DNA of 64,000 nt from Burkholderiaceae bacterium (GTDB lineage: Bacteria > Pseudomonadota > Gammaproteobacteria > Burkholderiales > Burkholderiaceae_B): positions 1 through 64,000 of the forward strand of contig JAGOAJ010000012.1 in assembly GCA_017983955.1 (NCBI GenBank), read 5' to 3'. This document shows positions 3,297 through 28,124 of this stretch, one piece after another (the stretch's first letter is position 1; every line of letters starts with the position of its first letter). The translations under genes were made by a program, and so were the position numbers. Below the pieces are notes generated by a model, which did no database searches, was not told the DNA's origin, and saw nothing but the letters and a program-made list of their open reading frames with translations.

Positions 3297-3404
3297 GGCG
3301 GGTATCCAAAAAATCCGCACAGACGTGACCACTTACTGCGTATACGCAAACAGGGCTCATCTTCGCCTGGGCGGGGAATGATGAGCGCCGTTGAAACAGA
3401 AACA

Positions 3405-3450
3405 TCCTGAGCCTAGCGAGTGTAGTCACCCGTTGCAGCGCCCCTCAGGA
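3405..3450 (-). promoter_or_regulatory. S-adenosylhomocysteine (SAH) riboswitch aptamer
   Basis: Read on the minus strand, the segment begins CCTGAGGGGCGCTGCAACGG and ends GCTAGGCTCAGG. A 7-bp P1 stem pairs 3444-3450 with 3405-3411. The conserved GGGCGCTGCAACGG and AGGCTCAGG segments match the SAH riboswitch consensus known upstream of ahcY in beta- and gammaproteobacteria. It lies about 110 bases upstream of the ahcY ATG. A second possible stem between it and the gene pairs GCTCAT (3381-3386) with ATGAGC (3355-3360 region) and could be part of the expression platform. Identity rests on motif and context. A covariance-model search was not possible here. Confidence 0.85.
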
Positions 3451-3483
3451 AGCTTGAATTGTAGCGCAATTTTGCCGCTGGCT

Positions 3484-7574: not shown

Positions 7575-8525
7575 ATGAGCGCCCTTCCTGAACCAGTACA
7601 GCAATGGCTGGTTTATCTACTAACCCAGCGGCGCTATTCCGACCACACCCTGTCAGCCTACCGGCGCGACATTCAGCACCTGCTGGATGCGCATCCGGGT
7701 GTCTTGCTGGACAGTCTGACCGAAAGTCACATCCGACTGGCCATAGGACGCCTACACAGCCGCGGGCTGGCCCCACGCAGCCTGGCTCGAGCCCTTGCGG
7801 CTTGGCGTGGCTACTATCAGTGGCGGGCCCCGACAGCCGGGCTGAGCAGCAATCCTGTAGCAGGCGTACGCGCACCCAAAGCACCACGCAGTCTACCCAA
7901 AGCTCTGTCAGTGGAACAAACACAGGTGCTACTCGATAGACCCGGTCTGCCCGAAGCACATACAGCACTGGAATGCCGTGATCAAGCCATGTTCGAGGTT
8001 CTGTATTCCAGCGGCATGCGCTTGACCGAACTGGTCAGCCTAGACTGGCGCTATACCCGCACGCCCGATTATGAATCCACTAGCTGGCTGCACTTGGCCG
8101 AAGGCGAAGCCGTAGTGCGCGGCAAGGGCAATAAAACCCGTAGCCTGCCTTTAGGCGGCAAAGCCATCACCGCTCTACAGCGCTGGCTAGATCTACGATC
8201 GCAACTAATGACTGAGCGCACAGTAGGACCAGATCATCAAGCCGCTTTGTTTTTGGGGGTACGCGGACAGCGCATTATTGCTCGCGTGGTTCAGTTGCAA
8301 CTGAACAAGCTGGCGACACTGGCGGGCCTGCCCGTGCATGTACATCCGCACAGCTTACGTCACAGCTTTGCCAGCCATATGCTGCAATCCGCTCAAGATT
8401 TGCGTGCCGTACAAGAACTGCTGGGCCACGCCAACATTTCCACCACGCAAATTTACACCCGTCTGGATTTCCAGCATTTGGCTCAGGCCTATGATATGGC
8501 CCACCCCAGAGCCAAACGAAAATAA
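7575..8525 (+). CDS. xerC: Tyrosine recombinase XerC
   Basis: A site-specific recombinase that, with XerD, resolves chromosome dimers at dif. It has 316 residues, with an N-terminal SAM-like core-binding domain (about 1-90) and a C-terminal catalytic domain. All six catalytic residues can be read: R149 (SSGMRLTE), K184 (GKGNK), H259 and R262 (HSLRHSF), H285 (LLGHANIS) and the nucleophile Y294 (IYTRLD). It directly follows DUF484. The neighbour arrangement (DUF484-xerC) argues for the housekeeping XerC and not a phage integrase. The 101-bp repeat begins at the base after its stop codon. Confidence 0.94.
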   Translation: MSALPEPVQQWLVYLLTQRRYSDHTLSAYRRDIQHLLDAHPGVLLDSLTESHIRLAIGRLHSRGLAPRSLARALAAWRGYYQWRAPTAGLSSNPVAGVRAPKAPRSLPKALSVEQTQVLLDRPGLPEAHTALECRDQAMFEVLYSSGMRLTELVSLDWRYTRTPDYESTSWLHLAEGEAVVRGKGNKTRSLPLGGKAITALQRWLDLRSQLMTERTVGPDHQAALFLGVRGQRIIARVVQLQLNKLATLAGLPVHVHPHSLRHSFASHMLQSAQDLRAVQELLGHANISTTQIYTRLDFQHLAQAYDMAHPRAKRK

Positions 8526-8626
8526 TTCCCTGTCTAGATCGAACGTGAGTTTTGTTGGCTTCGCTTGCCTTACGCTAGTAATGTCTGCGCTTCGCCGTCG
8601 CGCTCACGCTCGATCTAAGCAGGGAA
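8526..8626. repeat. 101-bp interspersed repeat, copy A
   Basis: A 101-bp element with imperfect 24-bp terminal inverted repeats (TTCCCTGTCTAGATCGAACG at the left; the right end read in reverse differs at three of the first 24 bases). The 46-bp core at 8551-8596 matches copy B (27304-27349, opposite strand) at 43 of 46 positions. The arms do not match those of copy B, but have the same lengths (25 and 30 bases). It fills the gap between the convergent xerC and znuA genes and could act as a transcription end. No transposase is nearby. It may be a MITE- or REP-like element. Confidence 0.85.
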
Positions 8627-8637
8627 CAAGACGGTGC

Positions 8638-9627
8638 TTATTTCAACGCGGTAATCAACTGGTCGGCATTCCAGCGCATCATGCCCAGGTAGGTAGAGGC
8701 TGGCTGACCGGTCTGCGCCAAAGCATCTGAATACAGGGTGCCGCCCACCACCGCGCCAGTTTCACGGGCGATTTGGCTGACCAGCTTGGCACTGCTGACA
8801 TTTTCGATAAATACAGCGGCGATCTGTTCCTGGCGAACCCTATCAATAATTGTAGCCACGTCCTTGGCCGATGGCTCGGCCTGGCTGGCCACGCCGGTCG
8901 CAGAAATAAACTGTACGCCGTAAGCCTGGCCAAAATAGGCAAAGGCATCATGCGATGTAATAACTTTACGGCGCTGAGGCGGTATTAAGGCTATAGCCGC
9001 CTTGATGTCCTGATCCATAACCTGAATGCGAGCGATATAGTTGCTGGCATTGGCTAGGTATTCTGCAGCATGAGCGGGATCGGCCCGGCTCAAGCCTGCT
9101 GCAATATTCTGTACATAAACCACCCCGTTTTGCAGGGACTGCCAGGCGTGGGGGTCAGTGTCACCGTGATTATGACCATGATCGTGATCGTGATCCTGAT
9201 CCTGATCGTGGTCCTGTTCCTGTTCCGACTCGCTTAGTTTTCGAGCCACGATGCCGGTAGAGGCTACAATTTTCTCGCCTTTAAACTGAGCAGACTGCAG
9301 CATGCCAGCCAGCCAGGTCTCGAAGTCCAGCCCGTTGACCACCAGAACCTGGGCGGCAGCCAGCGCTTTGACGTCACGCGGCGAGGGTTCAAAGGAATGG
9401 GCATCGCTGTCAGGACCGACGATGGTGGACAACGCAATGTGCTGACCACCCACTTCCTTGACCATGTCTGCCAATATAGAGAAACTTGCCACCACCCTTA
9501 AGGGCTGATCCTGGGCACTGGCTGTGCCCCAGGGGGCTACCAGCAGTAAAGCCATAGACAGCAAGACGGCAGTTAAGCGGGCATGCACCGGGCTATCGTA
9601 GGTAGCACGAAAAAAACGCCATATCAT
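8638..9627 (-). CDS. znuA: Zinc ABC transporter periplasmic binding protein
   Basis: The periplasmic receptor for high-affinity zinc import. It has 329 residues with a signal sequence (hydrophobic stretch about 16-38, ending ASAQD). It belongs to the cluster A-I metal-binding family: H77 in DSDAHSFEP and H160 in DPHAW are expected ligands. Between them (about 136-155) lies the His/Asp-rich flexible loop typical of ZnuA (QDHDHDHGHNHGD). The ATG at 9627 overlaps the stop of the permease gene (TAATG), so translation is coupled. It is the last gene of the znu operon, under the Zur box at 11423-11444. Zinc is preferred over manganese because of the loop and the Zur context. Confidence 0.93.
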   Translation of the reverse strand: MIWRFFRATYDSPVHARLTAVLLSMALLLVAPWGTASAQDQPLRVVASFSILADMVKEVGGQHIALSTIVGPDSDAHSFEPSPRDVKALAAAQVLVVNGLDFETWLAGMLQSAQFKGEKIVASTGIVARKLSESEQEQDHDQDQDHDHDHGHNHGDTDPHAWQSLQNGVVYVQNIAAGLSRADPAHAAEYLANASNYIARIQVMDQDIKAAIALIPPQRRKVITSHDAFAYFGQAYGVQFISATGVASQAEPSAKDVATIIDRVRQEQIAAVFIENVSSAKLVSQIARETGAVVGGTLYSDALAQTGQPASTYLGMMRWNADQLITALK

Positions 9628-27087: not shown

Positions 27088-27273
27088 AATAATGCTCCGT
27101 TTATCAAAAGTTTTTGTGTTGCATGGCAGCCTCTGTGGCTATGTATCCATTTAACCTTTGATCCGGCCAGCCTTCTTTGTCGTAGCGCAAACTTCCAGCA
27201 TGTTAATTGGGGTTATCCCTAGATTTCAGGTGCATAACAGTGAAATGTTAGAATCCAGCCACGCCATTGGTAA

Positions 27274-27374
27274 TTCCATTACCAAAGCGATCATGAACGC
27301 GAAGGCGAAGCGCAGACATTACTGGCGTAAGGCAAGCAAAGCCGACAAAGTGCACGGTCGCTTTGGTAATGGAA
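27274..27374. repeat. 101-bp interspersed repeat, copy B
   Basis: The second copy, inverted relative to copy A and the same length. Terminal inverted repeats are perfect for 17 bases (TTCCATTACCAAAGCGA). The core 27304-27349 matches copy A at 43 of 46 positions, but the arm sequences differ. The element ends 12 bases before the start of the Crp/Fnr gene, so it occupies the intergenic region between nirK and that regulator and would form the leader of its transcript. TAA flanks both ends. In the other strand a chance frame reads VGFACLTPVMSALR, as in copy A. Confidence 0.85.
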
Positions 27375-27386
27375 TAAGGACATGTA

Positions 27387-28124
27387 ATGCCTACTAAACT
27401 TAGCCGGTCATTAATCAAAAATCTTGACCTGTTCCGGCGCATGTCTGATGACGCGCTGGATGCCCTGCTACCACTTGCCCAGACCCATCTACTGTCTACC
27501 GGGGATGCGGCCTTCCGCCAGGGGAATAATGCTGATCACTTCTATGTACTGCTGCATGGCAATCTGAAGGTGGTTCAAAGCACCCCTGATGGCGAACAAG
27601 TGGTAGTGCGCTATGTCGTTCCAGGCGAAGTTTTTGGGATTGCCCACGCCATGCGCCGCCCCACCTACCCAGCCACCGCCCAGGCCGTCCACGAAAGCTT
27701 GGTGCTAAGCTGGCCTTCCAGCACTTGGGACCAGTTCACCGCCGACAACCCGCACTTTGCCCTGAATGCCTTGCAAACCGTGGGGCAACGCCTGCAGGAT
27801 GCCCATGCGCGCATACAGCAGCTGTCCACCGAAGAAGTCGAGCAACGCGTAGCACGCGCCATTTTGCGACTGGTTGACCAGTCGGGCAAAGAAACTGACG
27901 AAGGCATAGTCATTAACTTTCCTATCACCCGTCAGGAAATTGCTGAAATGACCGGCACTACGCTGCATACGGTAAGTCGACTGCTTAGCGGCTGGCGCGA
28001 TCGGGGGCTGGTCAAATCAGGCCGCAAACGTATCGTCGTCTGCGCGCTGGACGAGTTGATACGACTGGCTGAAGGTCCTCAAATCGCAGCCAATACAACA
28101 AGCAACGATTCCCAGCCTGTATAA
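27387..28124 (+). CDS. Crp/Fnr family regulator, probable NO-responsive (Nnr/Dnr type)
   Basis: A 245-residue regulator with a cyclic-nucleotide-like sensor domain (about 20-130), a dimerisation helix (about 135-165) and a winged helix ending with PITRQEIAEMTGTTLHTVSRLLSGW as the recognition region. No cysteine cluster is present in the N-terminal part, so it is not an oxygen-sensing Fnr. Position between nirK and a nirV-like gene suggests NnrR/Dnr, which sense NO through heme. The start is an ATG behind AAGGACATGTA. I could not find a clear TTGAT-N4-ATCAA box in the nirK upstream region. Confidence 0.82.
   Translation: MPTKLSRSLIKNLDLFRRMSDDALDALLPLAQTHLLSTGDAAFRQGNNADHFYVLLHGNLKVVQSTPDGEQVVVRYVVPGEVFGIAHAMRRPTYPATAQAVHESLVLSWPSSTWDQFTADNPHFALNALQTVGQRLQDAHARIQQLSTEEVEQRVARAILRLVDQSGKETDEGIVINFPITRQEIAEMTGTTLHTVSRLLSGWRDRGLVKSGRKRIVVCALDELIRLAEGPQIAANTTSNDSQPV

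Follow-up and report, generated by a model that had tools for sequence, protein, structure and literature searches.

A mobile hairpin family of Alcaligenaceae and relatives with TNA target duplications, a conserved core and compensated arm changes

The presence of two 101-bp elements on opposite strands of a 64,000-nucleotide stretch from a Burkholderiaceae bacterium (hereafter the window) raises the question of what kind of hairpin keeps its core and its pairing while its arms change sequence. The original prediction had described this pair, and its account was exact to the base: the cores match at 43 of 46 positions, the 24-bp ends of copy A are paired at 21 of 24 positions, and the pairing of the first 17 bases of copy B is perfect (Table 1). 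It had also taken the arms for different sequences. They do differ, but 15 of 25 and 19 of 30 positions are still identical, which makes the arms of the two copies diverged relatives rather than unrelated sequences. Core matches were absent from 100 dinucleotide shuffles of the window. The single-strand DNA folds of both copies, on both strands, are better than those of shuffled sequences (z from -3.2 to -5.0). The window also contains an SAH riboswitch on the minus strand (positions 3376-3452, 67.6 bits).

Table 1. Positions in the window of the two elements, their flanking triplets and the genes next to copy A.
Feature	Position	Strand	Remark
Copy A, mobile hairpin element	8526..8626	+	101 bp
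Core of copy A, conserved	8551..8596	+	46 bp; branched apical part of the hairpin
TAA, left TNA target triplet of copy A	8523..8525	+	also the xerC stop codon
CAA, right triplet of copy A	8627..8629	+	one base changed relative to TAA
xerC-like tyrosine recombinase gene	7575..8525	+	host gene; stop codon abuts copy A
znuA	8638..9627	-	convergent neighbour of copy A
Copy B, mobile hairpin element	27274..27374	-	101 bp
TTA, left target triplet of copy B	27375..27377	-	
TTA, right target triplet of copy B	27271..27273	-	same as left

The element is one copy of a small mobile hairpin family in Alcaligenaceae and their relatives. When up to 3 mismatches are allowed, the core occurs five times in the host genome (3.32 Mb in 62 contigs, 94% complete), at three places besides the pair first described. 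No two of these five copies have arms alike, and a GATC-containing stretch near TAGATC is common to three. One copy in this genome (L026) has a tandem duplication of about 20 bp within its left arm region. Of 101 genomes searched by pattern, 6 contained copies: the host's own and its relatives. We built a covariance model (R1) from a seed of 22 copies, having removed L026, L012, L020, L034, and L028 from 27 candidates. The model matched 16 of the 268 genomes of the host's family, in 10 of its 43 genera; at most 14 candidates were scored per genome, so that copy numbers are minimum values. In named genomes, a scan gave 19 stretches, from Corticibacter populi, Eoetvoesiella caeni, Pollutimonas harenae, Paracandidimonas soli, and other Alcaligenaceae, and four of these loci entered the model matching, three of them as duplicates. 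The 91 model matches, minus four duplicates (including L067, a repeat of L012), left 87 distinct copies for comparison. The tests on flanks used 85 of them, leaving out the partial copies L034 and L026. Plasmids, phages, and viral contigs gave no match to the element, the viral scan being one for exact matches to a single pattern.

Some copies depart from the common length. Three copies of 137 bp (L105, L109, L124), from two genomes of one genus (G034 and G246), have about 28 bp extra in the core (GATGGCAGCCACAAGGGCT...). A variant of 225-226 bp occurs in G195 (L127-L129), with an insert of about 120 bp that seems to be rich in small hairpins, and a fourth locus (L148) has a partial model match like that of this variant. 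We found no published description of the family in the main text of open-access articles on Alcaligenaceae and Bordetella repeats, MITEs, IS1031, and REPs.

The flanks of the copies reveal how they come to lie where they do. Next to the tips of the element, TTCC...GGAA, 73 of the 85 copies have a left TNA and 64 a right one. TNA stands on both sides in 56 copies, and the triplet is identical in 44 of these; 100,000 permutations gave 18 on average and 32 at most. Such matching triplets are a 3-bp target duplication, newly described here. In the window, copy B lies between identical triplets (TTA-TTA) and copy A between TAA and CAA, flanks that had not been part of the original description, nor had the role of this TAA as the xerC stop codon. 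TNA is missing from one or both sides in the remaining 29 of the 85 copies, and among the 56 with TNA left and right, 12 carry different triplets.

Comparison with related genomes revealed empty sites. The site filled by an element in G195 (L088), where the arrangement is TTA-element-TTA, is empty in the sister genome G031 and has a single TTA; in G195 this TTA ends, as a reverse-strand stop codon, an open frame 500 or more codons long. The element is also absent from the xerC-znuA gap of G001, the one genome of the same genus that was searched, and xerC ends in TAA there too. In G195, which shows signs of recent activity, the three near-identical variant copies with one common internal insert occupy three sites, each with TAA on both sides, and the fourth locus with the same partial match has TGA on both sides. 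Two further loci fit repeated insertion: the same gap is occupied in different genomes, but the copies sit at different points or face opposite ways. L089 and its counterpart in G031 were the one case seen of an orthologous site filled in both genomes.

The element thus has the features of a MITE: it is short (101 bp), has terminal inverted repeats (24-bp arms), lacks a transposase, makes a target duplication of fixed length, and shows filled and empty orthologous sites. Dispersed copies, the duplication, the empty sites, and the lack of a transposase in the element all support the proposal of a MITE-like family moved in trans. The same proposal had named REP-like elements, and this part of it is not supported, given the target duplication. 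To our knowledge, REP elements make no target duplication, and its presence argues against a REP-type single-strand transposase. A REP or REPIN element moved by a RAYT (Y1) transposase would be in keeping with the mobility of the hairpin and with its compensatory changes, which REPINs are reported to show too (available part of PMC3116915), but not with a 3-bp duplication, a 101-bp unit, and a conserved core instead of conserved REP ends. The combination of conserved ends without a target duplication was not found, and we consider this reading the least credible of all.

The target triplet often coincides with a stop codon. Copy A starts directly after that of xerC, and a frame of at least 100 codons ends exactly at the triplet in 48 of the 85 copies (31 on the left, 18 on the right on the other strand, one on both). 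With stricter gene calls, this number becomes 29 of 85. TAA and TGA both fit TNA, hence the element often inserts at a gene's stop codon, and the duplication of the triplet would keep the codon whole. We compared the placement with a random choice of TNA in the same gap. The test started from the 73 copies with a left TNA, minus 20 that the gene calls placed within a frame and 1 at an edge; the resulting 52 lie in 19 convergent, 29 in-line, and 4 divergent gaps. A stop codon is occupied in 24 of the 52, where 17.8 are expected, and 706 of 100,000 simulations were as high. We rejected the targeting of stop codons as such: the placement follows mainly from the TNA rule and gap size, with stop codons hit modestly more often than these would predict. 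The xerC-like recombinase next to copy A is a host gene, and any role in the mobility of the element is putative.

Copy B lies in a divergent gap, between a copper-oxidase gene on the minus strand (nitrite-reductase-like, nirK-like) and a gene for a Crp/Fnr-type regulator, as judged from their domains. The start codon of the regulator is 10 bases beyond the outer triplet of the copy. This triplet (TAA on the plus strand) and the following GGA form a Shine-Dalgarno-like TAAGGA (window 27274-27387). Copy B could alter the expression of the adjoining regulator.

The analysis of the stem asks whether the arms change together. Of the 87 copies, 57 have a length of 109-110 bp and at least 17 of 25 pairs and were used to tabulate mispairs; 6 failed the pairing filter and 24 are of other length. 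The covariation set comprises the 39 of these 57 that are 109 bp long. In these gap-free copies, a set that leans towards well-paired ones, 91.7% of cells are paired. Changes on both sides occur at 20 of 38 pairs, against a mean of 8.4 in shuffled alignments (0 of 500 as high) and 9-13 in slid controls. The number of cells changed on both sides is 84, against 21.7 in shuffled and 13-21 in slid controls. These values, far above both controls, strongly uphold the kept complementarity that had been read from two copies. In place of an isolated pair with arms drifting independently, there are more copies and strong covariation.

We compared compensated arm changes with core changes in 42 copies of 109 bp, taken without the pairing filter, counting changes against the majority consensus of related copies and not on a tree, and omitting six variable core positions and stem positions 21 and 26, by our own choice. 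Compensated arm changes show no correlation with core changes (rho 0.07, p 0.65), whereas mispairs do (rho 0.49, p 0.0009). In copies A, B, L013, L014, and L027, 3-6 compensated changes accompany 0-2 core changes; L049 combines seven of the former with five of the latter. Since compensated changes do not track core divergence and mispairs do, copies seem to carry new complementary arms on a kept core. The arms appear to be renewed with pairing kept, and then to decay through mispairs. A strong constraint on the core would likewise blunt the correlation between arms and core. When the copies are divided by whether their triplets are intact or decayed (21 each), the two groups show no difference in compensated changes (p 0.91), mispairs (p 0.10), or core changes (p 0.95), so that triplet decay and core divergence disagree as clocks.

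The type of mispair bears on the level at which pairing is maintained. Over the 57 copies there are 106 A-C and 51 G-T mispairs. Setting aside positions 8, 19, 21, and 22, whose mispairs we took as inherited, leaves 41 A-C and 43 G-T (added by hand). Because these four positions were chosen after the counts were seen, the lack of strand preference among the remaining mispairs only weakly favours a DNA-level process over selection on RNA. One such process is quasi-palindrome template switching, in which DNA repair copies one arm into the other and the structure is neither selected nor recognised. It would explain the lack of strand asymmetry after the exclusion, and also why some copies whose core is nearly intact have several compensated changes. 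The mispairs, however, persist and grow with core divergence, which indicates that correction in place is inefficient. We therefore consider template switching rather unlikely as the full account; it may be the step that renews the arms during mobilisation.

A sibling family extends the range of arms. A pattern search found a related core in 3 of the 268 genomes of the same family, with arms that are very different yet complementary. Its copies include L189 (two tandem copies), L190, L191, L192, and L203-L206. The tips of those in G031 and G195 are mostly near TACGG...CCGTA. In 5 of the 10 copies listed, the left triplet holds the stop codon of a frame at least 129 codons long, and L190, L192, and L210 have, by eye, the same TNA on both sides. 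The sibling family may or may not be, or be related to, the BRE of Bordetella.

Complementary arms this different could be host sequence, if the core inserted into the loop of pre-existing hairpins, such as terminators. At two of five sibling loci of G030, the sister genomes do hold a hairpin or palindrome like the arms. The other three sites are empty and have no such arms, and neither do the empty sites in G001 and G031. Furthermore, the window's family has consensus tips and arms, with the TNA duplication beyond them. We rejected insertion into existing hairpins, mainly because of the three empty G030 sites, and hold it to be very improbable.

The original prediction had further proposed that copy A, between convergent genes, could act as a terminator. 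This may hold for one strand of one copy. The 8 bases after the hairpin are T-rich on the znuA strand (TTATTTTC), a run that derives from the end of xerC; on the xerC strand they are CAAGACGG. Copy B, in its divergent gap, has no T-rich tail. At least 5 T in 8 bases follow one end in 14 of the 85 copies, and neither end in 71. By ends, this is 14 of 170, compared with 19 of 850 control octamers taken farther from the element, and the TTA triplet itself adds T. Terminator scans with loops of 3-8 bases gave one site, inside xerC, and none at the element, hairpins with longer loops being outside their reach. Judging from sequence, copy A may incidentally terminate the transcription of znuA; taken together, the members of the family do not resemble terminators.

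More generally, the hairpin might be a cis-acting RNA element (a terminator, an mRNA stabiliser, or an RNase III site), under selection in the transcript at each site and copied by duplication. The strong compensatory change would suit such an element, as would the many copies directly after stop codons, the few in divergent gaps (4 of 52), and the T-rich tails, including that of copy A. Set against this are the missing wobble-pair strand bias outside the four positions, the large majority of copies without a tail, the orientation relative to the gene (31 vs 18, p 0.085), the empty orthologous sites, and the target duplication. We judge an RNA element improbable.

The best explanation is a MITE mobilised in trans, which duplicates TNA and would be recognised by its core, tips, and pairing; we give it a probability of about 0.82. 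The non-autonomous element, about 101 bp long, would form one long imperfect hairpin, in which a stem of about 24 bp leads from the tips (TTCC...GGAA) to a branched core of about 46 bp. A trans-acting enzyme would cut a TNA triplet with a 3-base stagger and insert the element, leaving TNA on both sides. This enzyme would seem to need the core, the tips, and paired arms more than any arm sequence, in which case copies with new complementary arms could still move. The sibling family, with its related core, its placement at stop codons and its other complementary arms, adds to the case. Points that weigh against it are the CAA to the right of copy A, the copies that lack TNA on one side or have unlike triplets, and the disagreement between triplet decay and core divergence, as well as the failure to find a mobiliser.

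We searched for an autonomous parent by exact paired ends in eight genomes and found none, in a search that short or changed shared ends would escape. One clear pair of ends, about 1 kb apart in G246, encloses no evident transposase frame, as judged by eye. The IS5-type domain PF13340, which we take IS1031-type transposases to match, was found in none of the 16 genomes searched (15 carriers, all but G036, and G001). The element differs from the IS1031 subgroup in having no transposase gene. The 3-bp duplication of TNA is nevertheless what characterises this subgroup of the IS5 family, described in the accessible text of PMC12016507 with a TNA preference and an exclusive 3-bp direct repeat, and the transposase may choose its targets in an IS5/IS1031-like way. 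The ends given there for ISLrh, GAACCTGTCTAG..., differ from the tips of the present family, TTCCATTTCTAA....

How both arms would change together is a matter for more speculative proposals. The element may be known to its enzyme by core and shape, with both arms rewritten together during movement, e.g., by fold-back synthesis that copies one arm. Identity would then reside in the branched core and the tips and leave the stem sequence free, and the window's family and its sibling would be two branches of one TNA-inserting hairpin superfamily. We regard this as a tentative idea, doubtful as it stands.

The ERIC consensus is 127 bp long. With 101 bp and TNA, in place of 127 bp and TA termini, the family is set apart from ERIC by description. 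Its nearest published relatives, in the portions of the literature available to us, are MITEs of the ERIC and Correia type, REPINs, and the Bordetella BRE. Like the ERIC and Correia/NEMIS MITEs, it measures about 100-200 bp, forms one long hairpin, is mainly intergenic, and duplicates its target, and the mobiliser of such MITEs is usually unknown (PMC2229807). Unlike most of those, which have TA termini (table 1 of PMC2229807), it uses TNA, 3 bp, and keeps its core while its arms undergo compensated changes. The same source, in its available portions, reports that a match of ends between bacterial MITEs and an autonomous IS was mostly not sought or not found. REPINs are also mobile hairpins with compensatory changes on both hairpin sides; they keep their ends and vary the spacer, whereas this family keeps tips and core, varies the stem, and has a target duplication (PMC3116915, as far as available).

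Two other resemblances concern repeats of related hosts and stop codons. The BRE of Bordetella are repeats of 75-91 bp in Betaproteobacteria, usually intergenic, some in tandem, suspected of mobility and given no function in the accessible text (PMC3110155). They average 69% GC (PMC3110155), a comparison with this family by description only. Model R1, at E<=1e-4 and with stricter filters, had no match in 252 of the 268 family genomes, among which those of Bordetella were not identifiable. The termini of GTAG-tagged REPs often supply the stop codon of a flanking gene, as happens here; in those REPs, the element supplies TAG, whereas here the stop triplet is the duplicated target (PMC3733652, available portion).

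For most bacterial MITE families no mobiliser is known, and such families are defined by their ends. The present family has a precise target rule (TNA, often a stop codon), empty sites, and a stem whose pairing, not its sequence, goes with a conserved core. It offers a concrete system for asking whether a transposition enzyme reads DNA shape, and a repeat family useful for the annotation and typing of Alcaligenaceae.
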